This document shows positions 37,231 through 60,150 of a DNA stretch of 64,000 bases, in pieces. The translations under genes and the position numbers were made by a program. The stretch comes from Porphyromonas bennonis DSM 23058 = JCM 16335 (GTDB lineage: Bacteria > Bacteroidota > Bacteroidia > Bacteroidales > Porphyromonadaceae), in assembly GCF_000375645.1 (NCBI RefSeq), contig NZ_AQWR01000002.1:1-64000 (forward strand), in the 5' to 3' direction. Positions within the stretch are counted from its first letter, which is position 1; every line of letters begins with the position of its first letter. The notes below the pieces were generated by a model. The model searched no databases. It was not told the DNA's origin and was given only the letters and a program-made list of their open reading frames with translations.

Positions 37231-37274
37231 CGCAAATCAATTTCTGTACGGTGGTGATTATTCTTGGTTTTCCA

Positions 37275-37282
37275 CAAAGATA
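37275..37282 (-). promoter_or_regulatory. Bacteroidota -7 box for SLC13 permease
   Basis: TATCTTTG on the minus strand, 45 bp upstream of the start at 37230. Confidence 0.55.
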
Positions 37283-37340
37283 CTGAAAATGGAAGGCCCC
37301 TACCCCCATCTATATTATACTGGTGCACAGCAGACAGAGA

Positions 37341-37376
37341 GAGGATCGACCGACATCGCAATGCCGATCGATCCTC
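37341..37376 (-). terminator. Hairpin terminator after PatB-type gene
   Basis: The arms 37341-37356 and 37361-37376 form a 16-bp stem with G-U pairs and a 4-nt loop, about 30 bp beyond the stop of the 37408-38592 gene. No long T run is present. Confidence 0.5.
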
Positions 37377-37407
37377 AGTCTTAGTCTGTGGACAGTGAGG
37401 TACTTAG

Positions 37408-38592: not shown

Positions 38593-38634
38593 AACGCAAG
38601 ATTAAAGTGTTGTGTAAATCGTTTAAGTTCGTCT

Positions 38635-38642
38635 CAAAGGTA
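38635..38642 (-). promoter_or_regulatory. Bacteroidota -7 box for PatB-type gene
   Basis: TACCTTTG on the minus strand, 43 bp upstream of the start at 38592. Confidence 0.55.
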
Positions 38643-38761
38643 CAAATTGTTCTGCTTTTTCTAACACCCCCTCTTAACAAAGGGTTCCACGCCATCCTGT
38701 CACTCGCCACTTATCGCCGCCCTATCGTGTCCACAATCCCGAGAGAAAAAGCGGGCAAATC

Positions 38762-38843
38762 CTCTTACCGATAAGAGTCATCACTAATACCGATATTAGT
38801 GATCTCTAATAGCGGTAATAGTCGCGACTAATACCGGTAATAA
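38762..38843. repeat. 22-bp-period palindrome array A6 (4 units)
   Basis: Units at 38762-38777 (CTCTTACCGATAAGAG), 38784-38799, 38806-38821 and 38828-38843, with spacers TCATCA, TGATCT and TCGCGA. The array is in the 650-bp divergent region between the PatB-type gene and susC. In the first unit both outer arms changed together (CTCTTA/TAAGAG), keeping the palindrome. Confidence 0.9.
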
Positions 38844-39242
38844 AAATCCCCTCCAGGAAGCGGCTCTACAACAGCAACTCTGCCACCTACCGCTCAAGTC
38901 GTCCGTGAGTCCAGCCCTCCTCACATCTATCCAAAAACATGATCGACGCAAATAGAAGACATTATTCCGCAAACGAATCCCGTCATATATTCGACCTGAG
39001 AAACCAACACTAAACACTAATACTCAATATCTTACGCAAATTACATCTACGCCCTTGCCGATAATCGTTAGTGCGTAAAAGAAAGAGTGTAACACTAATG
39101 TCGTCAAAATGCAGTATGTTTGCCACAACGAACCACTACCTTTGGCGCAGAGTGAAGAGAGCTATATCTCATTTGCTCGTCGGAGGACGAACTTTTAATT
39201 TAAACTCCATAACTACATCTACAAACAACTTAAGTCGGTAAC
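38844..39242. other. Long leader/intergenic region upstream of susC
   Basis: The 399 bp between array A6 and susC contain two candidate -7 boxes, at 39115 and 39137, and no reading frame or RNA structure I can support. Sequence becomes AT-rich towards the gene. Confidence 0.5.
39115..39144 (+). promoter_or_regulatory. Two candidate -7 boxes upstream of the SusC gene
   Basis: TATGTTTG (39115-39122) and TACCTTTG (39137-39144) both match TAnnTTTG, about 100-120 bp before the susC start at 39243. Either may drive the locus. Confidence 0.5.
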
Positions 39243-42200
39243 ATGAACCTGAAGACCTCTCTAAAGGGCTGGGCAGTACTGCTTATGACTCTGACTATCT
39301 CGCTGGGTGCCATACTCCCCGCAAGGGCACAGTCGGATGTCAAGGTGAGCGGGACGGTCTATGATGATGCCCTACAGCAAGCATTTCCCGGGGTGACAGT
39401 CATCGTCGCCGGGACGACAAACGGCACCTACACCAATGGTGAGGGTCACTTCAACATCAGCGCACCCGTAGGGGCGACGCTACACTTCTCATTCATAGGT
39501 TACAAGACCTATGAGTACAAGGTCGAGAAGTCTGTCTCGGACCTCAAGATCACACTCCGGGAGGACGCTCAGGCGCTTGACGAGCTTGTTGTCCTCGGGT
39601 ATGGGGTCAACGCAAGGAAGCAGGACCTCTCTGCCTCAGTCGGCGTGATCGACAATACAGATGCACTCTCAGCTCGTCCCGTATCCAGTCCTGAGGGGAT
39701 GCTCCAGGGACAGCTGGCGGGTGTGACGGTACAGTCCGTCGGTGGGGATCCTACCGGGCTGCCCAATATCGTCATCCGCGGACAGGGCTCACAGAATGGG
39801 GACAACGTCCTCTGGGTGGTAGACGGTATCCCGGGCGCACCCATCACCTCTGTCAGTGACATCGAGTCCATCGTGGTGCTGAAGGACGCCGCCTCCGCAG
39901 CTATCTACGGAGCGCAGTCCGGAGCCGGTGGTGTCGTCCTTGTCACGACAAAGAAAGCGAAAGAGGGCAAGCCCACCCTGACATACGACGGCACATATGG
40001 TATCCGTCAGGCAGCCAATCTACCTCGCCCGCTCAATGCCGAGGAGCAACTCAGGATGAGACAGCTCAGCTACGCCAACGCCGGGCAGACGGTACCTGAC
40101 TCCTGGAATCCGGACAAGAACCCCTGGATCAAAACCACCCGGACCGACTGGATGAAGGAGGTCTTCCGCCCCGCCTTTTACCACCGCCACAATGTCGCAC
40201 TCAACGTAGGAACGGAGAAGTCCGCTAATCGACTCTCCTTTGCCTACGAGGACAATAAGGGTATCCTGCTCAATACCTACAGTCGTAACTTCTCACTCCG
40301 CTACAACGGTCGATACGACATCAATAGATATGTCTCCATCAGCGAGGACCTGATCTGGAAGAATAGCACCGGCCGCTCCAAGAGCACCAACGATGGTTAC
40401 ACCGGTCCGGTCCTCTCTGCGATCTATATGCCCTCGAGTGCCACAGTGTACAATCCTCTGGATGGTACCTTTGGCGGTGTGACGACAGAGGATCCGGAGT
40501 ACATCGCTAAGTACGGCAGCAACTTCGCCGACGCTCACGGTGATGCAGTCAATCCGGTTCGCCTGCTGACGGCCAGCAACTACTTCGACAAGAATAGCGA
40601 TGTCTGGACCACGACGGCACTGACGCTGAGCAACCTGGTGGAGGGACTCAAGTTCACCAGCCGCTTTACCTACAATATCTTCAACTATTACGGTAAGAGT
40701 TTTACTCCCATCACCGACGAGCCGGGTAAGCCCAATACATCTAATAGCTTAGGAGAGGCCTCATCTAGGACTGAAGCCTGGAAGACAGAGAACACTCTGA
40801 CCTATGATCAGACCTTCGGCGATCACTCCCTGAGTGCACTTCTCTCCACGACCGCAGATCACTGGCAGCAGATAGGCTTCTCAGGAGAGGGAAACAACTT
40901 CGCCGATGAGAGCCCCAACCTCCAGTTCTTTACCTTCGCCGGCGAGACAAGAGCAAAGGACTACTTCAGTGGGCCTGATGCCAATGTCTCTCTTGTGTCA
41001 CGACTGGGCTACTCCTACGCTGACCGCTACTTCGCTACCGTCTCCTGGCGTCGCGACTATGCAGGTCGACTCCCCCAGGAGCACAACTATGGCGACTTCC
41101 CTGCGGTAACAGCCGCCTGGAAGATCTCTAACGAGTCCTTTATGCCTACGTCGGAGAACTTCAATCTACTGAAACTACGTGCCTCTTGGGGACGTATCGG
41201 CAACCTCGGATCCATCCCGATGAACTACAAGTCTGCCACCCTCGGGACCAAGGACTGGCACGAGCAGGCAGTCTACGGCGTGGAGGAGAATAAGCTGTAT
41301 AATAATATTGTCTTCCACTCCAAGGCGGTCAATCCTCTGCTCACCTGGGAAACCTCTGAGCAGGTCGACGTCGGTCTGGACCTGGCACTCTTCCGCGAGA
41401 GACTCTCCCTCTCGATCGACTATTTTGACAAGAGAACCTTCAACCTGATCCAGGAGGCCACGATGAACTGGCCCAATACCATCGGTCTCGATCCGATGAT
41501 GCTCAACCTTGGAGAGGTGAATAACCGAGGATTTGAGCTGACCGCAGCGTGGTCAGACCGTGTGACCAAGGACTTCTCCTACTCGATATCCGGCAATGTA
41601 TCCTACCTGCGAAATAGGGTCACCGACATTGGTGTCAAGAATGAGGACGGCACGGCAGGAGTGTGGCTCAATAGCGGCTCAGACTTCCGCGGCATCCCCT
41701 ACACCATGCAGACCGGAGAGGGTCAGCCACTCGGATCCTACTACCTGATACGGACGGACAGGATCTTCAAGTCCGAGGCTGAGGTCAAGGCTCACGCAAA
41801 GGATGGTCAGCTGATCCAGCCGAATGCCGTGCCCGGGGACCTTAGGTTTGTCGATGCCAATGGCGATGGCGAGATCACTGATGCCGACAGACAATATCTG
41901 GGCAATGCCATGCCTGACTGGACCTATGCCGCCACCTTTGCCATGAACTATCGTAAGCTGGGCTTCAGCCTCATGCTGCAGGGGGTACAGGGAGCACAGG
42001 CGCTCAATGTAGCGAAGTATATGACCCTCAATGATGCGGAGGGGAGCTTCAATCGCGACAGCCGTATCCTCGATGCCTGGTCTGAGCAGAACTCAGGATC
42101 CGACATTCCCCGTCTTACGAAGGCAGATAACAATGGGAACTTCAAGACTCCGTCTGACTGGTACCTCGAGGATGCCTCCTACCTCCGACTCAAGAACGTC

Positions 42201-42404
42201 ACTCTCTCCTATGACATGAGCGACCTCATCCGCAGCTGGTCTCACCTCGACGAGCGTAAGAGCGCACTGCAGGTCTACCTGAGTGGTGAGAACCTCATGA
42301 CCCTGACTAAGTACAGCGGAATGGATCCCGAGACCGGAGGATGGGATGCCATGACCTATCCGGTATCGCGTGTTTTCTCACTCGGTGTGAAGCTCACCTA
42401 CTAA
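39243..42404 (+). CDS. SusC/RagA family TonB-linked outer membrane transporter
   Basis: A 1053-residue transporter: signal peptide (about 1-29, LPARAQ), CarboxypepD_reg-like domain (KVSGTVYDDALQQAFPGVTVIVAGT, about 34-110), TonB/plug signature LDELVVLGYGVNARKQDLSASVGVID, then the plug with GMLQGQLAGVTVQSVGGDPTG and IVIRGQGSQNGDNVLWVVDGIPG, and a 22-strand barrel. It imports oligosaccharides or other ligands presented by the SusD partner encoded next. First gene of the 39.2-53.5 kb locus. Upstream are two TAnnTTTG boxes and array A6. Confidence 0.95.
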   Translation: MNLKTSLKGWAVLLMTLTISLGAILPARAQSDVKVSGTVYDDALQQAFPGVTVIVAGTTNGTYTNGEGHFNISAPVGATLHFSFIGYKTYEYKVEKSVSDLKITLREDAQALDELVVLGYGVNARKQDLSASVGVIDNTDALSARPVSSPEGMLQGQLAGVTVQSVGGDPTGLPNIVIRGQGSQNGDNVLWVVDGIPGAPITSVSDIESIVVLKDAASAAIYGAQSGAGGVVLVTTKKAKEGKPTLTYDGTYGIRQAANLPRPLNAEEQLRMRQLSYANAGQTVPDSWNPDKNPWIKTTRTDWMKEVFRPAFYHRHNVALNVGTEKSANRLSFAYEDNKGILLNTYSRNFSLRYNGRYDINRYVSISEDLIWKNSTGRSKSTNDGYTGPVLSAIYMPSSATVYNPLDGTFGGVTTEDPEYIAKYGSNFADAHGDAVNPVRLLTASNYFDKNSDVWTTTALTLSNLVEGLKFTSRFTYNIFNYYGKSFTPITDEPGKPNTSNSLGEASSRTEAWKTENTLTYDQTFGDHSLSALLSTTADHWQQIGFSGEGNNFADESPNLQFFTFAGETRAKDYFSGPDANVSLVSRLGYSYADRYFATVSWRRDYAGRLPQEHNYGDFPAVTAAWKISNESFMPTSENFNLLKLRASWGRIGNLGSIPMNYKSATLGTKDWHEQAVYGVEENKLYNNIVFHSKAVNPLLTWETSEQVDVGLDLALFRERLSLSIDYFDKRTFNLIQEATMNWPNTIGLDPMMLNLGEVNNRGFELTAAWSDRVTKDFSYSISGNVSYLRNRVTDIGVKNEDGTAGVWLNSGSDFRGIPYTMQTGEGQPLGSYYLIRTDRIFKSEAEVKAHAKDGQLIQPNAVPGDLRFVDANGDGEITDADRQYLGNAMPDWTYAATFAMNYRKLGFSLMLQGVQGAQALNVAKYMTLNDAEGSFNRDSRILDAWSEQNSGSDIPRLTKADNNGNFKTPSDWYLEDASYLRLKNVTLSYDMSDLIRSWSHLDERKSALQVYLSGENLMTLTKYSGMDPETGGWDAMTYPVSRVFSLGVKLTY

Positions 42405-42420
42405 TTTGACACAGAAAGTT

Positions 42421-44073
42421 ATGAAGAAGAGTAATATACTATTGGGATCTCTTGCCGGCCTTATCGGACTGGTGGGACTCTCAGGATGCAATGACTTCCT
42501 CAATACCCACCCACAGGGGACCAATTCGTCAGACCAATACTTTGCCAATGACTACCAGGCGGTAGAGGCTCTCGATGGCATCTATGCATTCTATCATCAG
42601 GAGGACTGCTTTGGACGAGAGTTCTTCTGGGAGCAGGGAGCAGCATGTGATGTTGTCTGGGGTAAGAATCGCAGCTACAACACCCTTGCCACGTTCAAGT
42701 ACACCGGTGATGAGTCCCCCCTCAGGGATGTATGGGAATATATGCAGATGTGCATACAGCGAAGCAACTGGATCATCTCTGAGCTGCTCGGTAAGGAGAA
42801 GGAGCAGAAGCTTACACCCATCGAGAATAGAGTGCTCGGGGAGGCCTACTTCCTGAGAGGGTTTATCCACTTCTACACCGCCTACAGGTATGGTACCGAC
42901 AAGCAGGGAGTGCCCTTCACTCGGTGGGAGGACTACGAGGGTGGATACGATAACTCCATCCCTGAGCAGAGAGCATCCGTGATGGAGAATTACAAGCTCA
43001 TCATCGAGGATATGGATGAGGCGATCAAGCGACTGCCGAGGTATGAGACCTACGACGCAGCTGATCGTGGTCGCGCTCATCAGGCAGCAGCCGTCGGCTA
43101 TAAGGCTAAGGTCTATGCCTACTGGGCGGCTTGGGATGCCTCGAAGTGGAGCGACGTGATCGCCATGGTCAATGAGCTGGAGAGTAAGTACGACCGCGGC
43201 CTTGCCGACTCGTTCTCCGATCTTTTCTCATCCGACTTCAGCAAGTTCTGGTCACGCGAGTACCTCTGGACGATCCCCTCCAATGGCGGATCCTCCGGCG
43301 GTGGTACCGAGTTCCCCGGAGTAATCCTTGAGAATAAAGGCTGGGGTGTCTACAACGGCTGGGGGCAGAATAAGCCCTCCCTCGATATCTATGAGGAGAT
43401 GCTTAAGGATGGTAAGGGTAACGAGCGCCTCACAAGATCTATTCTCGAGTATGGTCAGGAGTTCCCTTTCTTTGGTGAGAAGAGGAAATTCTACTCTCAG
43501 TCAGACCTGGAGTCAGGCTTTCAGATCAATAAGTATATGGAGCCCTTTGGGCACAAGGACGCATCTCAGGAGGGGCTGGTCCATACCAATGGAAACTTCC
43601 CCTGTGCAAGGATCAACTTCCCCCTTCTCCGCTTTGCAGACTGTCTCCTTCTCCGTGCCGAGGCGTACCTGATGACCGGGAATGCGGCCAAGGCTACAGA
43701 GGACATCAATCGAGTAAGGGTGCGCTCACACCTGGATCCGATCAAGGGTACGGCAACCACGGCTGACCTCTACCACGAGAGACGCTGCGAGCTGGCATTT
43801 GAGTTCTCCGACCACCTGTACGACCTGAAGAGGTGGCACCTCAGCGGGGACGCTACACTTAAGGAGCTTGCCGCTAAGGAGCTGAACTCGCATCCGAGAG
43901 TGCGAGTGTATAAGAATCGTAGCAATCCTGACTCTTCCTTCACGATCGAGCCTTATAATGACTACAAGGACAAGGCTCAGTACCAGGACTACATGATCGC
44001 CTTCCCCTATCCATCGGATGTGATCACCAACTCCAATGGTAAGCTCAAGCAGAATATTGGCTATGCTAAGTAA
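42421..44073 (+). CDS. SusD/RagB family surface glycan-binding lipoprotein
   Basis: A 550-residue lipoprotein (LSGC, cysteine 23) with the SusD layout: N-terminal NDFLNTHPQG, tetratricopeptide-like helices (LGEAYFLRGFIHFYTAYRYG), the long excursion, and the C-terminal PLLRFADCLLLRAEAYL...DINRVR and ERRCELAFEFSDHLYDLKRW. It caps the SusC barrel and binds the substrate. Start ATG 42421, 16 bp after susC. Confidence 0.95.
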   Translation: MKKSNILLGSLAGLIGLVGLSGCNDFLNTHPQGTNSSDQYFANDYQAVEALDGIYAFYHQEDCFGREFFWEQGAACDVVWGKNRSYNTLATFKYTGDESPLRDVWEYMQMCIQRSNWIISELLGKEKEQKLTPIENRVLGEAYFLRGFIHFYTAYRYGTDKQGVPFTRWEDYEGGYDNSIPEQRASVMENYKLIIEDMDEAIKRLPRYETYDAADRGRAHQAAAVGYKAKVYAYWAAWDASKWSDVIAMVNELESKYDRGLADSFSDLFSSDFSKFWSREYLWTIPSNGGSSGGGTEFPGVILENKGWGVYNGWGQNKPSLDIYEEMLKDGKGNERLTRSILEYGQEFPFFGEKRKFYSQSDLESGFQINKYMEPFGHKDASQEGLVHTNGNFPCARINFPLLRFADCLLLRAEAYLMTGNAAKATEDINRVRVRSHLDPIKGTATTADLYHERRCELAFEFSDHLYDLKRWHLSGDATLKELAAKELNSHPRVRVYKNRSNPDSSFTIEPYNDYKDKAQYQDYMIAFPYPSDVITNSNGKLKQNIGYAK

Positions 44074-44111
44074 TCTTGATGAGCGAGCCTAACATTCACT
44101 AATCACACATA

Positions 44112-44160
44112 GGGGCATCATAGGCTCAGGGATCCGTCCCTTACCTATGATGCCCCTTTT
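44112..44160 (+). terminator. Intra-locus hairpin between susD and the PI-PLC gene
   Basis: GGGGCATCATAGG (44112-44124) pairs perfectly with CCTATGATGCCCC (44144-44156), followed by TTTTC. An inner GGGA/TCCC stem is also present. No TAnnTTTG box lies between it and the next start at 44175, so it may be a partial terminator reducing expression of downstream enzymes. Confidence 0.7.
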
Positions 44161-44174
44161 CATCCCAGATAGAT

Positions 44175-45101
44175 ATGGAGAAGACCTCACCACTGTGGTT
44201 CCTTACGCTACTGCTGATCTCAGGACTGGTCGGCGGCTGTGGGAGAGAGCCGGAGACGAGACTGATCGACCTCGCGATCGTGGGGACGCATGATGCCGCA
44301 GCCTATAATGCGTCACCCCGGCTTCGGTGCCAGGACCTGACGCAGGAGGAGCAGTTAGAGGTCGGAGTCCGTGCCTTTGACCTCCGACTCGTCGACCGAT
44401 ATGATGGGTCCGGACTTCTGGATCTTTATCATGGCAAGGAGTCGCTTGGGCTCGAGTTCACCGAGGATGTTCTGCCTCTTTTTACTCAGTTTCTCACCGC
44501 CCATCCAGACGAATTCGTTATCTTGTCACTCCGGAAGGAAGATGACGACCACCACTCGCCTGATGAGATGGAGGCGTACAGTGTCTCGCTCCTGCGTGCT
44601 CTGGAGAGACCGGAGGTGGCACGGCTCCTCTATAGAGGCGAGCTCACGCCGGCAACGAAGGTCTCGGAGGTTCGAGGGAAACTGCTCATCCTGCTTCGTA
44701 CGAGGATAGGCGACGATGTTTGTATGCCCTACTTTGATGGATTTCAGGACGACACCACCTTTGTGGCTCGCTTAGTCAATCCCTGCGGCGGGACTCTTGA
44801 CCTAATAGTAGAGGACAAGTATATGGTCTGCGACACCATCGGGATGCGTGATAAGAAATCGGCTCTCAGCGAGGTACTGGACCTTGCCGAGACGATGCCT
44901 GACCACTGGATGATCGCCTACCTCAGCGGGACAGGTGACCTAACTCCTGAGGCTGTGGCGGAGGAGATCAATCCTTTCGCCTACCGTCTTCTCCGAGAGA
45001 GGACCTCGCTCCCGGGAGGGATCTACTTTATGGACTTTGCCGGGATGCCTGAGGCTCGGGCGATCATTACGCTTTGTAAGAAACAAAACTCCAAGATATG
45101 A
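44175..45101 (+). CDS. PI-PLC X-domain lipoprotein
   Basis: A 308-residue lipoprotein (LVGGC, cysteine 22) carrying the phosphatidylinositol-specific phospholipase C X-domain pattern: IVGTHDAAAYN with H39 and D40, VRAFDLRL (D69, R71), LYHGKESLG with second catalytic H86, and FVILSLRKEDDDHH. Family enzymes cleave the phosphodiester between inositol phosphate and diacylglycerol or glycan-inositol lipids without calcium. A lipid-anchored surface form in a SusCD locus suggests removal of an inositol-phosphate lipid anchor from a glycan. Its stop overlaps the GH92 start by 4 bp (ATGA). Confidence 0.8.
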   Translation: MEKTSPLWFLTLLLISGLVGGCGREPETRLIDLAIVGTHDAAAYNASPRLRCQDLTQEEQLEVGVRAFDLRLVDRYDGSGLLDLYHGKESLGLEFTEDVLPLFTQFLTAHPDEFVILSLRKEDDDHHSPDEMEAYSVSLLRALERPEVARLLYRGELTPATKVSEVRGKLLILLRTRIGDDVCMPYFDGFQDDTTFVARLVNPCGGTLDLIVEDKYMVCDTIGMRDKKSALSEVLDLAETMPDHWMIAYLSGTGDLTPEAVAEEINPFAYRLLRERTSLPGGIYFMDFAGMPEARAIITLCKKQNSKI

Positions 45102-48037
45102 AGAATAAACTAACCCTACAGCTCGGGCTACTCCTCACTCTGCCACTGCTCTACGCTTGTGGTAACGGTCGGGGAGAGGAACTGATGACTACCGATCCGA
45201 CCAAGCTCTATGAGATGGTCGACCCATTCATCGGGACCGGATATCACGGACACACATTCCCAGGCGCTACTGCTCCGCTGGGAATGGTTCAGCTGAGCCC
45301 TGAGACACGGTGGGAGGGCTGGGATGCATGCGCCGGATACCATTACGATGACGACTCGCTCTACGGCTTTGCTCACACCCACCTCTCCGGCACCGGATGC
45401 AGCGACCTCGGGGACGTAATCTTCCTCCCCATTACAGACAGCAAGAGCTACGCTGGCCACATCGATGACGAACGCTTGCCCAAGGTCGGTTTCAGCAACG
45501 ACCGCGAGAGCGCACATGCAGGCTACTACAGTGTGGAGCTGGACAATGGTATCCGCGCTGAGCTTACAGCCGGATCCCTCATGGGCGTCCATCGCTACAC
45601 TTATCCTAAGGACTCCGGAGAGACCTCGCTGCTGATCGACTTAGTGAATATCAAAGGGGATGAGATCGTGGAAAGCGGACTGGAGCAGACCTCAGATAGT
45701 ACGCTGAGGGGCTACACGATCACCAACGGCTGGGTGCCTGGACAGCACGTTTACTTTGCCGCCAAGCTTAGCCGTCCGATACGAGAGACCAAACTTTTCC
45801 TAAATGGAGAAAAGGTCAATGAGCAGATCGCTCAGGGCGACTCCATCCGTGCGTTACTGTCTCTAGACGCGGGGGAAGACGGCGTTGTGGAGATCTTTGT
45901 CGGGCTCTCACAGACATCAATGGAAGCAGCTGAGGCTAATCTCAACGCGGAACTCTCACGGTCCGGCAAGACATTCGACCAAGTCTGTGCCAGCACAGAG
46001 AAGCAGTGGAATGACCTCCTCTCCAAGGTAAAGGTAAAAGAGGGGAAGAGGGAGGATCTCACTTGCCTCTACACCGCCCTCTACCACTCCCTCGTAGCGC
46101 CGAATAGAACAAGTGATGCTGACGGGAGCTATCGCGGTATGGACGATAAGATCCACCAAGTCTCTGGAGTGAGCTACTCCACTCTGTCGCTCTGGGACAC
46201 CTTCCGCGCGGAGCATCCTCTCCTCGCTCTGCTCTACCCGGAAGTGGTGCCTGATCTGTGCCGATCCATGATGCAGATGTACCGTGAGCAGGGCGAGCTA
46301 CCCATCTGGCCACTCTATAGTGGAGAGACCCGAACCATGATCGGTTACCACGCCGTCTCCGTACTGGCTGATGCCTACCTCAGTGGACAGCTTGGCGACC
46401 TCGACCCGATGGTGGTGCTCGAGGCTATGATCAAGTCCTCAAATATCAACAAGAAAGGCTCCGATGCCTACACCCGACTGGGATTCATTCCCGCCAATAC
46501 GCACAACGAGTCCGTCTCCTGCACCCTCGAGTACGCTTATGATGACTGGTGCATCGCTCGGATGGCGGAGGCGCTCGGGGAGAAAGATATTGCAGACACC
46601 TACTACCAGCGAGCTCACAATTACATCCACCTCTTCGACGGAAGCACCAAGTTTTTCCGCGGACGTCACGAGGACGGATCTTGGGGAGCCGACTTTGACC
46701 CTTACGAGGTAAGCAAGGACTACACCGAAGCCAATGGCTGGCAGTACCGCTTTGCGCCCATGCATGATGTGGAGGGGATGATTGCTCTCCACGGTGGAGC
46801 AGAGGAGATGCTTGACGCTCTCGACAATCTCTTCAGCGACACCACACCGGCTGGAGACCTCCAGGACATCACCGGTCTTATCGGGCAGTATGCTCATGGC
46901 AATGAGCCGAGCCATCACCTCGCCTACCTTTACAATTACCTGGGTCGCCCCTCCCGTACCCAGGAGCTGACGCGTCAGATCCTGGATGAACTGTACCTCG
47001 ACACTCCGGAGGGGATCAGTGGCAATGAGGACTGCGGTCAGATGTCTGCCTGGTACCTCTTCACTGCCCTCGGTCTCTATCCGGTGACACCGGCTAGCGG
47101 AGAGCTCCAGGTCACCACCCCTCGCTTCCGGGAGGTGACCCTGACGCTCCCGAAGGGCGAGCTCACCATTACCACAGACAAAGATCCCGCAGAGTATCCC
47201 TATATCCGATCCGTCAGTCTGAATGGGAAGGAGCTGCGTCGTCTCTTCGTCACCACAGAGGAGCTCGCTCAGGGAGGCACACTCGCCTTTGCGCTCTCCG
47301 ACAAACCTGTAGATGACTTCCGAGTGGAGGAGAAGCCCTACAGCATGACTCGCAAGGACTTCGTGTCTCCGGTATACAGCTCGGACGACATCACCCTCTT
47401 CCACGACCAGGTGAGCGTAAGCTTAGCCACAGCCACCCCAGGAGCGACGATCTACTACACCATCGATGAGGGGGAGAAAAAGGAGTACACCGGCACCCCC
47501 ATCACCCTCACTCGCAGCACGACCCTCCGGGCTACTGCCGAGAAAGAAGGACTAAATCCCTCGCCCTACACGACGCTCATCGCCACAAGGGCTGAGTATG
47601 CCCCGGCTATGGAGGTCACCTCCATTGCCGATGGTGCCAGCTGGACGCTCCACGCAGGATCGGTCGGTAATACGAATCAGATCGCCGCACTTCCTATTGT
47701 AGAGCGCGGTGTCTGCGATCAGCCCTCGATAGAGATGCGAGACCGCGAGGATCTCTTTGCGCTCACCTTCACAGGATATATTGATGTACCGGAGACAGAT
47801 GTCTACGAGTTTCGTCTCACCTCCGATGATGGCTCCGTCTTACGTATCCACGATCGACCAATTGTCCTCAATGACGGCTCGCACGCTTTCGTCTCAGCCA
47901 CCGGCAAGGCCGCACTCAGTCGCGGACTACACCCCTTCACCCTACTCTACTGGCAGGGCGCTGAGGGCAAGGGACTACGACTGGAGTACCGCCGACGCGG
48001 AGAGACTGACTACACCACACTCACCCTCAAGCACTAA
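45098..48037 (+). CDS. GH92 alpha-mannosidase lipoprotein with C-terminal PA14-like module
   Basis: A 979-residue lipoprotein (LLYAC, cysteine 21). The GH92 domain (about 35-740) shows YEMVDPFIGTGYHGHTFPGA, PLGMVQLSPET, GFAHTHLSGTGC, YHSLVAPN, HGNEPSHH (600-607) and GNEDCGQMSAWY (642-653). A chitobiase-like beta-sandwich follows (TPGATIYYTID), then a PA14-like domain with RLTSDDGSVLRI. GH92 enzymes are calcium-dependent exo-mannosidases, and the HGNEPSHH form resembles alpha-1,2-acting members. The acylated, PA14-bearing form suggests surface action on a high-mannose or phosphomannosyl glycan. Coupled to the PI-PLC gene by an ATGA overlap. Next gene 6 bp away. Confidence 0.92.
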   Translation: MKNKLTLQLGLLLTLPLLYACGNGRGEELMTTDPTKLYEMVDPFIGTGYHGHTFPGATAPLGMVQLSPETRWEGWDACAGYHYDDDSLYGFAHTHLSGTGCSDLGDVIFLPITDSKSYAGHIDDERLPKVGFSNDRESAHAGYYSVELDNGIRAELTAGSLMGVHRYTYPKDSGETSLLIDLVNIKGDEIVESGLEQTSDSTLRGYTITNGWVPGQHVYFAAKLSRPIRETKLFLNGEKVNEQIAQGDSIRALLSLDAGEDGVVEIFVGLSQTSMEAAEANLNAELSRSGKTFDQVCASTEKQWNDLLSKVKVKEGKREDLTCLYTALYHSLVAPNRTSDADGSYRGMDDKIHQVSGVSYSTLSLWDTFRAEHPLLALLYPEVVPDLCRSMMQMYREQGELPIWPLYSGETRTMIGYHAVSVLADAYLSGQLGDLDPMVVLEAMIKSSNINKKGSDAYTRLGFIPANTHNESVSCTLEYAYDDWCIARMAEALGEKDIADTYYQRAHNYIHLFDGSTKFFRGRHEDGSWGADFDPYEVSKDYTEANGWQYRFAPMHDVEGMIALHGGAEEMLDALDNLFSDTTPAGDLQDITGLIGQYAHGNEPSHHLAYLYNYLGRPSRTQELTRQILDELYLDTPEGISGNEDCGQMSAWYLFTALGLYPVTPASGELQVTTPRFREVTLTLPKGELTITTDKDPAEYPYIRSVSLNGKELRRLFVTTEELAQGGTLAFALSDKPVDDFRVEEKPYSMTRKDFVSPVYSSDDITLFHDQVSVSLATATPGATIYYTIDEGEKKEYTGTPITLTRSTTLRATAEKEGLNPSPYTTLIATRAEYAPAMEVTSIADGASWTLHAGSVGNTNQIAALPIVERGVCDQPSIEMRDREDLFALTFTGYIDVPETDVYEFRLTSDDGSVLRIHDRPIVLNDGSHAFVSATGKAALSRGLHPFTLLYWQGAEGKGLRLEYRRRGETDYTTLTLKH

Positions 48038-48043
48038 TGATCC

Positions 48044-49216
48044 ATGAAAGTCATATCTAAGCACCTCCTTATAATCCTGCTACTCATCGGTCTCACTGCA
48101 ACGGCACAGGAGCCGAGCCGCCAGACCGTCACCCTGCCCTCCACCTACGAGACCGTAACGGTCCGCCCTGTGGGGGGGACCAAGGTACGCAACGTCGTCC
48201 TGATGATCGGCGACGGCATGAGCCTCGCACACATCGCTGCCCTTAGAACAGTCAATAAGGGACACATCAATCTCTCCAATGCTCAGGCCACCGGACTTGT
48301 CATCACCACGGCACTTGACAAGCTCGTCACCGACTCCGCTGCTGCTGCCACTGCGATGAGCACAGGGCATAAGGCTCGCTACCACACACTCGCTGTAGAT
48401 AGTCTCGATCGACCCTACGCCACTATCATCGACTACGCGCACAGCGCCGGACTCGGCACTGGCGTGATCAGCACCTGTCGTCTTTACGATGCAACCCCGG
48501 CCGCCTTCCTCGCCCACAGCTCTGAGCGAGAGGCACCCTATGAGATCATCGGGCAATTCCCCGACAGCCATTGCGATCTCATCATGGGCGGAGGGGCAAA
48601 GGTCTTTGCCGACAGACCTGATGGACGCAACATCTTCCAGGAGATGAAGGAGAAGGGGTATCGTGTCACCCGTAGCCTTAAGGACTTCGCTGCAGGCGAA
48701 AAGAGTTCCTCCGGCCGCGAGCTATGTGTCTATGCGGAGAAGGACGTACCTGTGCCACTGGAGCGGGGAGAACTACTCTCCGACGCCTCACGTCTTGCAC
48801 TTGATCATTTGGCAAAGCAGACCCCTGAGGGTTTCTTCCTGATGATCGAGGGCTCTCAATTGGACGACTATGGTCACACCAACGACCTCGACCTGCTGAT
48901 GCAGGAGACGGCAGACTTCGATCGCGCTATCGGAGCGGTCATGAGGTGGGCCGAAGAGGATGGCGAGACGCTCGTCATTGTCACAGCGGATCACGAGACC
49001 GGAGGACTCACCGTCCTCGGTGGAGATGAGGAGAAGGGCGAAGTGGAGGGAAACTTCTCCACCGGCGGCCACAGTGGCGTGCTGGTACCGATATACCTCT
49101 ATGGTCCGTCAGCGGACTACTTCACCGGCATCTACCACAATACCGAGATCTACCATAAGGTCATGCACCTCCTCGGACTCTCCGAGCGCTGCACCCACGA
49201 GACTGCCAGACCATGA
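48044..49216 (+). CDS. Secreted alkaline phosphatase
   Basis: A 390-residue phosphomonoesterase with a signal peptide (about 1-21, TATAQ). The alkaline phosphatase motifs are MIGDGMS (metal D57), VTDSAAAATAMSTG (nucleophile S98), MIEGSQLDDYGHTND, VTADHETGG and STGGHSG. It lacks the large insertions of E. coli PhoA. It lies between two glycan/phosphoester genes and likely removes phosphate from sugar phosphates released in this locus. No PHO-type signal is visible. Its stop overlaps the next gene by 4 bp. Confidence 0.92.
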   Translation: MKVISKHLLIILLLIGLTATAQEPSRQTVTLPSTYETVTVRPVGGTKVRNVVLMIGDGMSLAHIAALRTVNKGHINLSNAQATGLVITTALDKLVTDSAAAATAMSTGHKARYHTLAVDSLDRPYATIIDYAHSAGLGTGVISTCRLYDATPAAFLAHSSEREAPYEIIGQFPDSHCDLIMGGGAKVFADRPDGRNIFQEMKEKGYRVTRSLKDFAAGEKSSSGRELCVYAEKDVPVPLERGELLSDASRLALDHLAKQTPEGFFLMIEGSQLDDYGHTNDLDLLMQETADFDRAIGAVMRWAEEDGETLVIVTADHETGGLTVLGGDEEKGEVEGNFSTGGHSGVLVPIYLYGPSADYFTGIYHNTEIYHKVMHLLGLSERCTHETARP

Positions 49217-50670
49217 AGCGACTACTTACATCCATCGTCCTATTACTCCTGTGCTTGAGTTCCCTATCGGCGCAGGACCAGCGCGGAGTGCTGCGCTTCA
49301 GATCCGACAGCACCTTTCGTATAGCACAGTTTACCGACCTCCACATCGACCCTACCTCAGTCAATACCCCACGCACCTACGAGGTTCTCCGAGAGGTGAT
49401 CCGCTCTGAGCGACCGGATCTGGTTCTGCTGACCGGTGATGTCATCACTGAGCGTCCTGCGGCAGAGGGCTGGAGGACCCTCACTCGATTCTTTGAGGAG
49501 GAGAAACAGCCTTACGGCGTTCTACTCGGCAATCACGATGCTGAGGTGATCTCCAAGGACTCCATCTATGACCTCCTCGAAGGGAAGCCTTACTGTATCA
49601 GTCTCAGAGGACCTAGGGAAATTGAGGGCGAGGGCAATCAAGAGATCCGCATCGAGAGTTCCTCCGGAGGGGAGATTGCTGCCCTGCTTTACCTCTTGGA
49701 CTCGGGGCAGTACTACAGGGACCAATTTATCAGCCACTACGACCACATCCACTTTGATCAGATCGACTGGCTAAGAAGAACTCATGCCCAGACCATCTCT
49801 GAGAGTGGTAGGGACGTCATCCCATCCATGCTCTTCTTCCACATTCCCATACCAGAGTTTGAGACACTAAAAGATCAATGGAAAGGACACATCAGCGAGG
49901 GCATCTCCTCCTCCACGCTAAATAGCGGGCTCTTCAGCACACTGCTTGACTTAGGCGGCGTAATGGGAGTCTTCTGCGGACACGACCATGCCAATGACGC
50001 CCTGGCGATCCGAGACGGCATCACCCTCGGCTACGGACGAGTAAGCGGTCTGGATGCCTATGGAGATCTTCCCAGAGGCGGACGAATGATTGTTCTGCAC
50101 GAGGGAGAGCAGCGCTTCGACAGCTGGATAGCTACCCCGGAGGGAGGTCGGGAGGCTACCTTCTACTACCCCTCCGGCTTCGACTCCGATGAGGAGCAGT
50201 CGGCTCACTATCTGCCGCCACTCTCTCTCGATGCCCGGACTCACGGAGTGAGGTACCGCTACTACGCCGGGACGATCAAGCAGACCGAGCAGATCCCCAC
50301 CGCCACACTTGTCAAGGAGGGGACCCTCCCCTACCCCTCTATCGAGGGAGCAGATCGGGAGGACCACTTTGGCTACATCTTCGAGTCCCTCATCCGCATA
50401 CCGGAGCGGGGGCTCTACCGCTTCTACACCTACTCCGATGACGGCTCTGTGCTCTACATTAATGGAGTAAAGGTGGTAGATAACGACGGAGGTCACAGCG
50501 CCCGCCTACGGGAGGGAGTAGTCGCACTGGAGGCAGGCTTCCACCGGCTTAGGGTCGACTACTTCGAGGACTATATGGGACAGACACTCGAGGTGGGACT
50601 GACCGGAAAGAGTCTCCTACGGCAGCCTATCCCTGAGAGCATGCTATACCTCGAGCCATCTGACGAGTGA
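49213..50670 (+). CDS. Secreted calcineurin-like phosphoesterase with PA14-like module
   Basis: A 485-residue protein: signal peptide (1-20), metallophosphoesterase domain with FTDLHID (D42, H44), LLTGDVITE (D76), LLGNHDAEV (N107, H108), FFHIPIPE and FCGHDHAND, then a linker and a C-terminal PA14-like domain with FYTYSDDGSVLYINGVKVVDNDGGH. The PA14-like domain echoes that of the GH92 two genes upstream. Probably cleaves a phosphodiester on the same glycan, since PurA/Dcr-like relatives act on diverse phosphoesters. Inferred from context. Confidence 0.88.
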   Translation: MKRLLTSIVLLLLCLSSLSAQDQRGVLRFRSDSTFRIAQFTDLHIDPTSVNTPRTYEVLREVIRSERPDLVLLTGDVITERPAAEGWRTLTRFFEEEKQPYGVLLGNHDAEVISKDSIYDLLEGKPYCISLRGPREIEGEGNQEIRIESSSGGEIAALLYLLDSGQYYRDQFISHYDHIHFDQIDWLRRTHAQTISESGRDVIPSMLFFHIPIPEFETLKDQWKGHISEGISSSTLNSGLFSTLLDLGGVMGVFCGHDHANDALAIRDGITLGYGRVSGLDAYGDLPRGGRMIVLHEGEQRFDSWIATPEGGREATFYYPSGFDSDEEQSAHYLPPLSLDARTHGVRYRYYAGTIKQTEQIPTATLVKEGTLPYPSIEGADREDHFGYIFESLIRIPERGLYRFYTYSDDGSVLYINGVKVVDNDGGHSARLREGVVALEAGFHRLRVDYFEDYMGQTLEVGLTGKSLLRQPIPESMLYLEPSDE

Positions 50671-50671
50671 T

Positions 50672-51898
50672 ATGATACGACTGATACTGCTGACAGACTT
50701 TACCGAGTCCTACTCCTACAACCTATTTGCCGGCATACAGGCCTATGCACAGGAGCATGACCGCTGGGCAGTCTGCCGTATGCCGCCGAGCTACAAGAGC
50801 CAGCATGGTCTCGCCGGCGTGCTGGAGTGGGCCCGAGCGTGGGAGGCGGATGCGATCATCGGACGCTTCGATGCCGGGGACCGGGTCGAGTCCTTCAGAG
50901 AGGCAGGTATACTGGCCATAGCACAGGACTACAAGGTGCCGATTCCCTCGCTGCCTGCCGTCACGGGAGACTACTGCGGGACGGGCGAGATGGCAGCAGA
51001 ATACTTCATCCGCAAGGGCTTCACCTCCTTTGCCTTCGTTGGCTACCGAGATGTGTTTTGGTCTCAGGAGCGCTACTACGGCTTCCGGTCTTACCTCGAG
51101 GAGGCGGGGCTGGCAGATGCTCTGACCGACTACCGTGAGACCTCTATTGACGAGGTGTGGGACTACCGTCAGGAGCGACTGATCAAGTTTCTGGAGGAGC
51201 TGCCACCGGAGACAGCAATCTTCGCCTGCGATGACAATGAGGGGATCCGTATCGCTGAGCTCTGCCGTGTCGCTGACATCGGCATCCCCCAGGACGTGGC
51301 GATCCTCGGGGTGGACGACGACCGGACCATCTGTGGTCTGGCGGACCCTCCTCTCTCCAGCATCTCACTCGATGTCGTACAGGGAGGATATGAGACGGCA
51401 GCACAGATCGACCGATACCTCTCCCACAAGTCCGACAGGGTGGACGACGTAGTTGTCCGACCGGTCCGGATCAGCGAGCGCGCCTCGACCAACATCCTCT
51501 CCATCAGCGACCGTGAGGTGGCGAGGGCGATCCGCTTCATCCACGACCACTCCACTCACCCGCTCTCCGTGATGGACGTCGTGCGACAGGTCCCTCTATC
51601 GCGTCGACACCTGGAGATACGCTTCAAGAGAGCCACACGCCAGACGATACAGAAGTACATCATGAAGTACCGCGTCGAGAAGCTTGCCCATCTCCTGATC
51701 ACCAGTGACAGGCCGATCATGGAGCTGGGAGAGGAGATGGGCTTCGGCAGCCCCAAGAATCTCTCCCGCCAGTTTAGGTCCGTCATGGGCATGTCTCCCC
51801 AGAAGTACCGACGCCTGCACCACTGCTCCGTCTCCGGGAGCCCAAGCGAGCTCCTAAGAGAGACAGTTGATGAGCGCACGACTAATCCCACACCATGA
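50672..51898 (+). CDS. XylR-type transcriptional regulator (LacI-like sensor plus AraC HTH)
   Basis: A 408-residue cytoplasmic regulator. The N-terminal ~275 residues are a periplasmic-binding-like sugar sensor (LLTDFTESYSYNLFAGIQAYAQEHDRW, ACDDNEGIRIAELCRVADIGIPQDVAILGVDDD), and the C-terminus is an AraC double helix-turn-helix (LSVMDVVRQVPLSRRHLEIRFKRATRQTIQKYI, GFGSPKNLSRQFRSVMGMSPQKYRR). This matches XylR from E. coli in layout. It is embedded in the locus 1 bp after the phosphoesterase, so it likely senses a released monosaccharide and activates the locus. Confidence 0.92.
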   Translation: MIRLILLTDFTESYSYNLFAGIQAYAQEHDRWAVCRMPPSYKSQHGLAGVLEWARAWEADAIIGRFDAGDRVESFREAGILAIAQDYKVPIPSLPAVTGDYCGTGEMAAEYFIRKGFTSFAFVGYRDVFWSQERYYGFRSYLEEAGLADALTDYRETSIDEVWDYRQERLIKFLEELPPETAIFACDDNEGIRIAELCRVADIGIPQDVAILGVDDDRTICGLADPPLSSISLDVVQGGYETAAQIDRYLSHKSDRVDDVVVRPVRISERASTNILSISDREVARAIRFIHDHSTHPLSVMDVVRQVPLSRRHLEIRFKRATRQTIQKYIMKYRVEKLAHLLITSDRPIMELGEEMGFGSPKNLSRQFRSVMGMSPQKYRRLHHCSVSGSPSELLRETVDERTTNPTP

Positions 51899-53508
51899 TA
51901 GTTATTATGAAAAAAGCAATATGTCTGACCCTGCTGGCCGTGACCGGCACAGTGGCAGTTGCCTCAGCGCAGATCAGCGCAGGAAACGACTCGATCTACA
52001 GACTGCCGTACAAGAATACTTATGTGAAGAACGTCTTCGTCACCGACAATGCCTTCCGGACCATGAAGCCCCGGATCACACAGCCCCGCTCATTTGACGA
52101 AGCAAGGACTATCCTCCCCTCTCCGATCTGGGAGGGACACGAGGAGGAGATCGGGATGTACTGGGATGCCTGGAGGATAGCTATCGACAACATTCGTCAG
52201 CCGGACCCCGGATCGGGCTTTGTCGCCACATATATTGACACGGCCTATAATGGGAACCTCTTCATGTGGGACGACTGCTTCATCCTGATGTTTGCCCGCT
52301 ACGGAGACCGATTCTTCCCCTTCCAGAGGACGCTTGACAACTTCTACGCCAAGCAACACCCCGACGGATTCATCTGCAGGGAGATCAAGGCGGACGGCGC
52401 TGACTGCTTTGAGCGATACGATCCCACCTCCACGGGTCCCAACCTACTCCCCTGGTGCGAGATGGTCTACTACCATCAGTATGGTGATCTCGAGCGACTG
52501 CATCGCGTCTTCCCTGTGCTCTGCGGCTACTACGACTGGCTGCGGCTCAATCGCACCTGGCGCAACGGCACCTACTGGAGCAGTGGCTGGGGGACCGGGA
52601 TGGACAATATGCCACGCGTGCCGGAGGGGTACAATCCGATCTACTCCCACGGTCACATGATCTGGCTCGACACCAATCTCCAGCAGATCATGACCGCCTA
52701 CCAGCTCCTCGAGATGGGCTTCTACATCGAGCGGTGGCAGGAGATCGAGGACTATGAGACCGAGGCGCTGGCACTCAAGGACTATGTCAATACTCAGCTG
52801 TGGGACGACAAGAGCGGCTTCCTCTACGACCAGTACCGCGACGGCACCCTCTGCGACGCCAAGGGGATCGGAGCCTACTGGGCGCTGATGACCGACGTAC
52901 TGGACAGAGAGCGAATGGATCGTCTCGTGACACACCTGACGAGGGAGAGCGAATTTGCCCGCCCCCACCCCATTCCCTCTCTCTCTGCCGATCACCCCAA
53001 GTACCGACCCAATGGTCGCTACTGGCAGGGAGGCGTCTGGCCGGGAACAAACTACATGGTGATCACCGGTCTCTCTCGACAGGGCTACCGTGATCTCGCC
53101 TACGACATTGCTTCGAAGCATTATCAGGCGGTACTGGAGGTGTACCGACGGACAGGGACCTTCTATGAGTACTATGCTCCGGAGGCGACTGAGCCGGGAT
53201 TTATGGCGCGGGATCACTTTGTCGGCTGGGGCGGACTCGCCCCTATCGCTCTCCTGATCGAGTACCTTATCGGGATCAAGGCTGACTACCCCGAGGAGAC
53301 GATCCGCTGGGACATCCACCAGCTGGAGGCACACGGGATCGAGCGATACCCCTTCGGACCAGATGGTATGGTGGACCTGAAGTGTGCTCGGCGAAGCTCA
53401 GCCAATGAGCGTCCCAGAGTGACCGTCCACTCCAATGTACCGCTGACCCTCATCCTCACCTATGGGAAGGGGAAGAGCGAGACACTTCGAATCGAACCGG
53501 ACCGATAA
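51895..53508 (+). CDS. Secreted GH63-like alpha-glucosidase/glycosidase (MGH1-like)
   Basis: A 537-residue protein with a signal peptide (about 1-26) and an (alpha/alpha)6 barrel of the GH63/GH37 type: YNGNLFMWDDCFILMFA, GWGTGMDNMPR with general acid D237, GGVWPGTNYMVITGL and FYEYYAPE with candidate base E425. Relatives hydrolyse alpha-glucosides, glucosylated N-glycans or mannosylglycerate. Substrate is not certain. ATG 51895 overlaps the XylR stop (ATGA). ATG 51907 (MKKAIC) is an alternative. Last gene of the locus, with no terminator before array A7. Confidence 0.85.
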   Translation: MIVIMKKAICLTLLAVTGTVAVASAQISAGNDSIYRLPYKNTYVKNVFVTDNAFRTMKPRITQPRSFDEARTILPSPIWEGHEEEIGMYWDAWRIAIDNIRQPDPGSGFVATYIDTAYNGNLFMWDDCFILMFARYGDRFFPFQRTLDNFYAKQHPDGFICREIKADGADCFERYDPTSTGPNLLPWCEMVYYHQYGDLERLHRVFPVLCGYYDWLRLNRTWRNGTYWSSGWGTGMDNMPRVPEGYNPIYSHGHMIWLDTNLQQIMTAYQLLEMGFYIERWQEIEDYETEALALKDYVNTQLWDDKSGFLYDQYRDGTLCDAKGIGAYWALMTDVLDRERMDRLVTHLTRESEFARPHPIPSLSADHPKYRPNGRYWQGGVWPGTNYMVITGLSRQGYRDLAYDIASKHYQAVLEVYRRTGTFYEYYAPEATEPGFMARDHFVGWGGLAPIALLIEYLIGIKADYPEETIRWDIHQLEAHGIERYPFGPDGMVDLKCARRSSANERPRVTVHSNVPLTLILTYGKGKSETLRIEPDR

Positions 53509-53569
53509 GGCTGTCAAGTAAAACCATTACGTCGAGTCCCTCTGCATACGGATCAGAAGTGGCTCCGAT

Positions 53570-53629
53570 CTATTACCGGTATTAGTGATGACTAATACCG
53601 GTAATAGTGTAAACTAATACCGGTAAAAG
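53570..53629. repeat. 22-bp-period palindrome array A7 (3 units)
   Basis: CTATTACCGGTATTAG (53570-53585), CTAATACCGGTAATAG (53592-53607) and CTAATACCGGTAAAAG (53614-53629), with spacers TGATGA and TGTAAA. It is placed between the convergent GH63 and outer membrane protein genes, where no conventional terminator is visible. Confidence 0.9.
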
Positions 53630-53701
53630 AAATTCCCCTGAGGTAGAAGAGTATTTTCCGCTGCTATACTGCGAATAAGAGACGGTAGCATTTCACAGGT
53701 C

Positions 53702-57210: not shown

Positions 57211-57241
57211 AATCTTGTCTGTTGGTGGTTGATACGTGCGC

Positions 57242-57249
57242 CAAAGATA
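57242..57249 (-). promoter_or_regulatory. Bacteroidota -7 box for GLPGLI gene
   Basis: TATCTTTG on the minus strand, 32 bp upstream of the start at 57210. Confidence 0.6.
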
Positions 57250-57285
57250 GCGCATTTTCTCATGACGGAATACACTTCCATGGCT

Positions 57286-58839: not shown

Positions 58840-58842
58840 TCT

Positions 58843-60132: not shown

Positions 60133-60150
60133 TCATATAACACTCAAGAG

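Follow-up and report, generated by a model that had tools for sequence, protein, structure and literature searches.

Known α-mannan PULs contain GH92 and GH125 enzymes (PMC9213526). α1,4-mannosides are rare except in fungal walls and GPI cores, and a role on such substrates has been hinted at for GH92 α1,4-mannosidases (PMC5930347). The GPI core has the structure EtNP-6Man-α2-Man-α6-(EtNP)Man-α4-GlcN-α6-Ins-P-lipid with a β-GalNAc side chain; PGAP5 is a phosphodiesterase that removes EtNP, and GPI phospholipases of the GDPD family exist (PMC7125958). Here we describe a locus of Porphyromonas bennonis whose enzymes may act on a glycan of this kind. It lies in a window of 64,000 nucleotides at the start of contig NZ_AQWR01000002.1. 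No paper on this PUL type or on any GPI PUL was found in open-access full text, and we know of no microbial pathway that consumes GPI glycan.

The locus consists of eight consecutive plus-strand open reading frames that span positions 39243–53508. The first encodes a SusC/RagA TonB-dependent outer-membrane transporter (39243..42404; TIGR04056, 773.7 bits) and the second a predicted SusD/RagB surface glycan-binding lipoprotein (42406..44073; PF07980, 99 bits, and PF14322), for which TTG at 42406 and ATG at 42421 are equally possible starts. After a 101 bp gap come genes for a lipid-anchored PI-PLC with the lipobox LVGGC (44175..45101; PI-PLC-X, PF00388), a GH92 protein with CHB_HEX_C and PA14 domains and a lipoprotein-type signal (45098..48037; PF07971, 559 bits), a periplasmic alkaline phosphatase (ALP) with nucleophile S98 (48044..49216; PF00245, 220 bits), a secreted calcineurin-like phosphoesterase with a PA14 domain (49213..50670; PF00149, 58.5 bits), a XylR-type regulator composed of Peripla_BP_3 and an AraC HTH (50672..51898) and a predicted GH63-like (MGH1-like) inverting α-glycosidase (51895..53508; PF22422, 137 bits, and GH63 PF03200). 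The PI-PLC and GH92, the ALP and calcineurin, and the XylR and GH63-like genes each overlap by 4 bp; GH92 and ALP are 6 bp apart, calcineurin and XylR 1 bp. These overlaps suggest that the genes may be carried on a single transcript. With adjacent SusC and SusD, degradative enzymes and a regulator, all co-directional, the locus is a Bacteroidota PUL. The preliminary description had given this span, the eight domain assignments and, from PI-PLC to GH63-like, gaps of at most 6 bp or 4 bp overlaps; the open reading frames match the span exactly, the profile searches recovered every domain and the coordinates agree with the spacing. The two PA14 domains, and a second GH92 at 60965–63205 that is unrelated to the one in the locus, did not appear in it. 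An Rfam search of 37000–56000 returned no element, and promoter and terminator scans stayed at chance level.

This locus belongs to a PUL family that is widespread in Bacteroidales. Using the GH63-like gene as marker we found 248 relatives and read 80 of their neighbourhoods. The core of the family comprises SusC/D, a distinct GH92-PA14 clade, ALP and the GH63-like enzyme; the usual extras are calcineurin-PA14, EEP and/or GDPD, often with GH125, GH20 and a ROK kinase. GH92 was present in 67/80 neighbourhoods and ALP in 69/80, followed by EEP (49/80), GDPD (45/80), calcineurin (38/80), GH20 (23/80) and GH125 (21/80). The eight more divergent GH63-like homologues (<50% identity) have none of the partner genes beside them and serve as a negative control. 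A second Porphyromonas carries the same genes in the same order, with 83–93% identity for the six enzyme and regulator genes, and a looser form of the set is found across Bacteroidales, which argues for more than chance. SusC is 62–67% identical to its counterparts in related PULs of Bacteroides and Phocaeicola, and SusD 60–67% to the SusD of related PULs. XylR-type regulator homologues adjoin related PULs as well. The set also occurs in further Porphyromonadaceae-like genomes, and the type strains of Bacteroides fluxus and Dysgonomonas mossii are among the carriers of the PUL. Record titles place the relatives in rumen, termite and animal guts. The leftover neighbouring open reading frames of the relatives form no recurrent extra CAZyme cluster.

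The PI-PLC is a divergent member of its family. It scores 19.9 bits with PF00388, slightly under the curated 23.1, and phmmer matches it to the B. cereus PI-PLC structures 3ea3/1gym (E 1e-9, ~41 bits). Window residues H39, D40, R71, H86, D214, Y216 and D287 correspond to H32, D33, R69, H82, D198, Y200 and D274 of B. cereus. By this alignment, the catalytic residue set of metal-independent bacterial PI-PLC (His pair, Asp, Arg) is present in the window protein, and H39, H86, D40 and R71 are invariant among 13 homologues. At the inositol-contact positions D214 and Y216 are kept, K115 of B. cereus is replaced by R120, and R163 pairs with T176, next to an R175 that is invariant in the homologues. 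The window protein thus appears to retain the catalytic and most of the inositol-binding residues of the B. cereus enzyme.

PI-PLC is not part of the core: most members do without it, including the closest version that lacks it, the Porphyromonas locus L186, which has the same transporter (78% identity in SusC) and the same enzymes. Homologues were sought with the window protein as query, as a whole-genome search with the PF00388 profile found nothing, controls included. Most homologues in 393 sampled Bacteroidales genomes sit outside such PULs, so that PI-PLC alone is no marker of the family and the GH63-like gene is. PI-PLC occurs in 4/80 of the GH63-like-anchored loci against ~0.02 expected from its density in the 393 genomes, a ~200-fold enrichment. 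PI-PLC is a variable part of the family and, since a single origin of the PUL PI-PLCs is rejected (p-AU 0.003), was recruited at least twice. The existence of L186 would suit the view that the gene encodes an unrelated lipase placed by chance inside an ordinary mannoglycan PUL. This is highly improbable given the enrichment, the four different positions that PI-PLC takes within these PULs, its 4-bp overlap with GH92 and the fact that three genomes of the genus keep it beside GH92.

ALP shows TDSAAAATA and the metal-ligand motifs. In relatives it is fused to GDPD or to GDPD, calcineurin and PA14; in one locus (L065) GDPD, ALP, calcineurin and PA14 form one protein of 1120 amino acids, and because of this fusion the three phosphoesterases probably share a substrate. 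Residues D42, H44, D76, N107, H108, H210, H257 and H259 of the calcineurin phosphoesterase are invariant in 35 relatives, and its AF2 model (pLDDT 92) is nearest in fold to purple acid phosphatase and 2nxf. In many relatives the EEP is similar to the mannosyl-6-phosphatase 4c1r (E 1e-43), an activity that also serves on yeast phosphomannan; the EEP of one relative (L038) matches the Pfam PGAP2IP nuclease-like domain (E 5e-13). GDPD is a TIM-barrel relative of PI-PLC.

GH92 had been described as an exo-mannosidase. Its catalytic pair is kept (acid E478 and base D645, for E533 and D644 of the reference BT3990), and that assignment needs qualifying in two respects. The His-Glu/Pro-Trp motifs that mark α1,2 enzymes (PMC12858847) were looked for in the sequence and not found, and the GH92s of these PULs form one distinct, uncharacterised clade (SH-aLRT 99) near α1,3, α1,4 and mixed enzymes. 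It is best read as a predicted exo-α-mannosidase that is not of the α1,2 subtype. A mannosyl-phosphodiesterase of the CcMan5 type is unlikely because the general acid E478, which would not be expected in such an enzyme, is retained. GH125 is encoded elsewhere in the genome; among 38 genomes of the bacterial family it occurs in 5/5 that bear the GH63-like gene and in 8/38 overall (hypergeometric 1.1e-4, uncorrected for kinship).

Phosphorylated α-mannan or high-mannose glycans (yeast phosphomannan, Man-6-P glycans), with phosphatases that merely clear the way for GH92 and GH125, would account for the EEP homology to mannosyl-6-phosphatase and for the GH92–GH125 pair of known α-mannan PULs. The genome, however, has no GH76; among the 87 leftover neighbouring open reading frames, the 25 commonest families include no GH76, GH99, GH18 or GH85, and no GH18/GH85 endoglycosidase lies within the locus. 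The hallmarks of a yeast-mannan PUL (GH76, in the genome) and of a high-mannose N-glycan PUL (GH18/GH85 in the locus, α1,2 GH92) are absent. GH92 has its general acid and not the α1,2 signature that action on mannan side chains would call for, and PI-PLC and the GH63-like enzyme are left without a reason. We consider such a substrate distinctly unlikely.

The AF2 model of the GH63-like protein (pLDDT 89) has as best Foldseek match E. coli YgjK (E 3e-15), followed by Thermus mannosylglycerate hydrolase, both GH63, at moderate TM-scores of 0.4–0.72. D237 and E425, which we take from the GH63 motif to be the putative acid and base, are invariant in 44 homologues. As modelled, the protein has the GH63 fold and the putative catalytic Asp/Glu. 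The nearest characterised GH63 enzymes act on glucosides or mannosylglycerate. We know of no GH63 enzyme that cuts GlcN-inositol, for which this protein is a candidate hydrolase.

These folds would also suit an α-hexoside that carries glycerophosphate or another phosphodiester and no inositol, such as a bacterial or algal envelope glycan, with GDPD ancestral and PI-PLC a fold-related substitute; the number of loci with GDPD, its frequent fusion to ALP and the rumen and gut origin of the relatives point the same way. A mere substitute in fold leaves the inositol-contact residues, most of which appear to be kept, and the repeated recruitment of PI-PLC unexplained, and we regard this reading as improbable. 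Those contact residues agree with another phosphoinositol mannolipid: actinobacterial phosphatidylinositol mannosides (PIMs) or lipomannan, fungal mannosyl-inositol-phosphoceramides (MIPCs) or plant and protist glycosyl inositol phosphoceramides. PI-PLC, GDPD or EEP, a family that includes phospholipase-C types, would cut the head-group inositol phosphate, and GH92 and GH125, well suited to mannosyl-inositol, the mannose. Such lipids offer no job for the GH63-like protein, the most conserved enzyme, or for GH20; bacterial PI-PLCs normally do not cut inositol-phosphoceramides, and the plant lipids need an α-glucuronidase, which is not among the leftover neighbouring families listed. A mannolipid of this kind is unlikely.

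The substrate is very probably some phosphodiester-bearing α-mannoside, and we lean towards GPI-anchor glycan or free GPI-type glycolipid. A phospho-inositol or phospho-mannose substrate had been proposed before; the conserved enzyme set, the apparently intact residues and the repeated recruitment of PI-PLC strengthen it, although PI-PLC is not the locus core. From the candidates then listed GPI fits best. The list narrows because no GH76 is found in the genome and no GH76/GH99/GH18/GH85-type endo-enzyme among the commonest families of the examined neighbourhoods, which argues against yeast (phospho)mannan and N-glycans; compared with PIMs or MIPCs, GPI is the better match for the GH63-like, GH20 and GH125 partners. 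To our knowledge the GPI core is the only familiar glycan that needs all these activities. The enzyme set was matched to it in the form EtNP-Man-α2-Man-α6-(GalNAc-β4)Man-α4-GlcN-α6-Ins-P-lipid. Against GPI stand the lack of PI-PLC in most members and in L186, the glucosides and mannosylglycerate on which the nearest characterised GH63 enzymes act, a GH92 clade that is not closest to the α1,4 enzyme BT3965, the mannosyl-6-phosphatase-like EEP of many relatives and the calcineurin folds, which are closest to purple acid phosphatases and not to PGAP5. PA14 lectin domains are not specific.

In the proposed pathway, the surface lipoprotein PI-PLC would cleave the bond between inositol phosphate and lipid and leave an anchor glycan with phosphorylated (cyclic) inositol, while the protein part would be trimmed by the cell's own proteases. 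SusC/SusD would import the phospho-glycan. The calcineurin-PA14 phosphoesterase would then cleave the ethanolamine-phosphate diesters and ALP strip the remaining monoester phosphates from mannose and inositol. The α-mannoses would be removed by the locus GH92 and the GH125 encoded elsewhere, and the residual α-GlcN-inositol unit split by the GH63-like enzyme; XylR would sense a released sugar. In relatives without PI-PLC, EEP and/or GDPD would complete the phosphoesterase set. What we infer, beyond the observed genes, their catalytic residues, the conserved set, the repeated PI-PLC recruitment and the GH125 co-occurrence, is the substrate, the sequence of the steps and what each enzyme acts on, above all GH63-like on GlcN-inositol and GH92 on Man-α4-GlcN. 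More tentatively, gut, oral, rumen and termite Bacteroidales may possess a dedicated, complete GPI-anchor catabolic pathway with interchangeable phosphodiesterases (PI-PLC, GDPD, EEP, type-I PDE), in which the GH63-like protein would be the first known glycosidase for the GlcN-α1,6-inositol bond.

GPI anchors are carried by at least 150 human proteins, and they coat fungi and protozoa. If the GPI reading is right, GPI glycan would define a nutrient niche (host epithelium, ciliates, fungi), and a conserved, unassigned PUL family would have its explanation. Microbes would then be expected to shed GPI-anchored proteins of the host, and new enzymes would become available for analysing GPI structures.

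Eukaryotic PGAP5/MPPE1 (calcineurin), GDE2/GDE3 (GDPD) and the C-terminal part of CWH43 (EEP) belong to the same superfamilies and act on bonds that the PUL would cut, a relationship at superfamily level only. The BT3965 PUL of B. thetaiotaomicron, with its GH92 α1,4-mannosidase and hinted GPI target (PMC5930347), is likewise a SusC/D-type locus with GH92. A link to it was rejected: its near-identical homologue, locus L172, encodes three GH92 enzymes and not one phosphoesterase, and BT3965 falls outside the PUL GH92 clade. With the secreted PI-PLCs of Bacillus cereus/thuringiensis and Listeria (PlcA) the window protein shares the fold family, the catalytic His/Asp/Arg and, apparently, most inositol-contact residues, yet these are stand-alone enzymes, whereas it is a sequence-distant lipoprotein in a PUL operon. 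The yeast α-mannan PULs of B. thetaiotaomicron and the marine α-mannan PUL of Salegentibacter Hel_I_6 have SusC/D and GH92 in common with the locus, and GH125 and the EEP relative of mannosyl-6-phosphatase in common with its relatives (PMC9213526). In contrast to them, the locus has no GH76/GH99 endo-enzyme and a single GH92 of another clade, and the locus and its family add PI-PLC/GDPD, ALP, calcineurin-PA14 and the GH63-like enzyme.

All eight plus-strand open reading frames of the preliminary description were found at 39243-53508, and domain searches bore out their assignment as SusC, SusD, PI-PLC, GH92, alkaline phosphatase (ALP), calcineurin-like, XylR and GH63-like proteins. From the PI-PLC gene to the GH63-like gene neighbours are, as described, at most 6 bp apart or overlap by 4 bp. 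Lipobox-like signals were read on PI-PLC, GH92 and SusD, and ordinary signal peptides on ALP, calcineurin and GH63-like proteins. ALP keeps Ser98 and its metal motifs, and in the calcineurin enzyme none of the eight residues expected at the metal site is lost in 35 homologues. The proposal that the locus dismantles a phospho-inositol or phospho-mannose glycan is supported in part; it is extended here from one locus to a PUL family, with a narrower choice of substrate.

About 440 bp upstream of susC, a perfect inverted repeat, ATCACTAAT-ACCGAT-ATTAGTGAT (38780-38803), is followed by similar half sites and is a possible regulator site. A small stem-loop, TCGTCGGAGGACGA (39177-39190), with a T/A-rich stretch after it, lies about 50 bp upstream of susC. 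Convergent with the PUL are genes for a protein of outer-membrane type that matches CarboxypepD_reg weakly (53702-56302, minus strand) and an adjoining Porph_ging-family protein (56299-57504, minus strand). A fimbrillin-like (Mfa_like_1) protein of 663 amino acids is encoded at 7424-9415 (plus strand).

The window genome is near complete at 2.02 Mb, and its closest named relative at the locus is Porphyromonas sp. HMSC065F10. Within Porphyromonadaceae (38 genomes, two genera), PI-PLC stands beside the same enzymes in four genomes. The six genes that locus L037 has in common with the window are 83–93% identical; its SusC and SusD differ (37% and 28% identity), and it also encodes an EEP protein and a lipoprotein of 281 aa. 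Common enzymes of L038 are 44–62% identical. A lipoprotein of about 270–280 aa, lacking a Pfam match, lies between the EEP phosphatase and PI-PLC in both (L037:13457-14302 and L038:12777-13589, minus strand) and accompanies the exchanged SusC/SusD pair. In L039 the gene order is altered, type-I phosphodiesterase-PA14 replaces calcineurin-PA14, and the GH63-like protein is 63% identical. L186, from a fifth genome, reads SusC-SusD-GH92-ALP-calcineurin-GH63-like (63–79% identity), with no trace of PI-PLC between SusD and GH92. The GH63-like gene of genome G425 sits elsewhere, adjoining a XylR gene. susC is split in L039 (327-4355, by a DDE transposase) and L071 (980-5642), and these PULs may be inactive there.

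With the GH63-like protein as bait, 248 relatives were found in named genomes, and the best 80 neighbourhoods (1.47 Mb) were taken. Titled members among these 80 are Bacteroidota, including Bacteroides oleiciplenus, fluxus, neonati and pyogenes, Phocaeicola barnesiae, Dysgonomonas, Prevotella, Alistipes, rumen and termite MAGs and one Gelidibacter. The exception, L085, bears the title 'Clostridiales bacterium'; its PUL is typical of the family as seen in Bacteroidales, and the bin is probably mislabelled. Within the best 80, partners were ALP (69/80), GH92 (67/80), EEP (49/80), GDPD (45/80), calcineurin (38/80), ROK kinase (36/80), GH20 (23/80), GH125 (21/80) and PI-PLC (4/80); 66 of the 80 held at least one of GDPD, EEP, PI-PLC or type-I PDE. 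The partner genes were absent beside the more divergent GH63-like homologues whose neighbourhoods were checked. The window SusC and SusD share 60–67% identity with their counterparts in many Bacteroides and Phocaeicola members, so all of these probably import a common ligand.

GDPD-ALP fusions occur in many loci, and a single 1120-aa protein (L065:11623-14985, minus strand) joins GDPD, ALP, calcineurin phosphoesterase and PA14. This pattern of fusion and exchange suggests a single substrate, containing more than one phosphate bond, as the target of the phosphoesterases. A phosphodiester-bearing alpha-mannoside of some kind is very probably that substrate, and we lean slightly towards the glycosylphosphatidylinositol (GPI) anchor. 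The GPI core is EtNP-6Man-a2-Man-a6-(EtNP)2Man-a4-GlcN-a6-Ins-P-lipid (EtNP, ethanolamine phosphate); in many proteins the first mannose also bears b4-GalNAc (PMC7125958). Its breakdown requires one phosphodiesterase for the head group and one for EtNP, along with monoesterases, exo-mannosidases (a1,6 and a1,4 among them), an a-glycosidase for GlcN-inositol and sometimes a b-hexosaminidase, and the PUL family supplies a candidate enzyme for each. No other common glycan known to us requires all these activities. GPI is not certain because the EEP of many relatives resembles mannosyl-6-phosphatase and most members lack PI-PLC; rival predicted substrates are phosphomannan, PIM/MIPC/GIPC lipids and a glycerophosphate-bearing glycan.

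For the window PI-PLC the PF00388 score alone is below the curated cut-off; the protein matches B. cereus PI-PLC structures over about 260 residues (E 1e-9). B. cereus H32, D33, R69, H82, D198, Y200 and D274 correspond to H39, D40, R71, H86, D214, Y216 and D287, and K115 to Arg120. At R163 the pairwise alignment slips by one residue; the adjacent R175 does not vary among 13 homologues. Arg71 is a mark of the metal-independent type.

PI-PLC was recruited into the PUL family and is not ancestral to it. The 19 matches in 393 Bacteroidales genomes, at an assumed 3–3.5 Mb each, give an expectation of about 0.02 in the 1.47 Mb of neighbourhoods, against four observed, three of them outside Porphyromonas. 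The gene precedes GH92 in Porphyromonas and follows the type-I phosphodiesterase in L039, while in L110 and L134 it comes behind EEP at the 3' end. In L132 (2486-4699, plus strand), where it lies between SusD and GH92, PI-PLC is fused behind an N-terminal extension of about 440 aa. When PI-PLCs from outside such PULs are included, the tree requires a minimum of two origins, with three changes on the best tree; a single origin of the PUL PI-PLCs was rejected (p-AU 0.003). Long branches leave the exact number unsure.

The window GH92 keeps its acid (E478) and base (D645). The PUL GH92s form a clade of their own (SH-aLRT 99), near the a1,3, a1,4 and mixed enzymes, with BT3965 outside it. Judged by published a1,2 motifs (PMC12858847), which they lack, the PUL GH92s are predicted not to be of the usual a1,2 type. 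A second GH92 in the window (60965-63205, plus strand; 746 aa), of a different lineage, ends a run of M20 peptidase, amidohydrolase and phosphorylase genes (57463-60972); the genome has three GH92 genes in total, and a search of it found no GH76. GH125, the exo-a1,6-mannosidase family, is often inside the PUL in relatives and in the window genome lies on another contig (C16:2104-3306). It occurs in all five family genomes with the GH63-like gene and 8/38 overall (hypergeometric 1.1e-4, kinship ignored). D237 and E425 of the GH63-like enzyme are invariant in 44 homologues. Its AlphaFold2 model (pLDDT 89) comes closest in fold to two GH63 enzymes, YgjK of E. coli and the mannosylglycerate hydrolase of Thermus.

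In eukaryotes GPI is served by the EEP family (C-terminal part of CWH43, function unsettled), and PGAP2IP is the top-scoring Pfam domain of the L038 EEP, a resemblance at superfamily level only. Calcineurin (PGAP5) and GDPD (GDE2/3) families also act on GPI there (PMC7125958). The PUL enzymes are like PGAP5, GDE2/3 and CWH43 only at superfamily level. As Thompson et al. (2018) hinted at GPI for GH92 a1,4-mannosidases (PMC5930347), the notion that Bacteroides may feed on GPI is not entirely new; the proposal of a PUL for it is.
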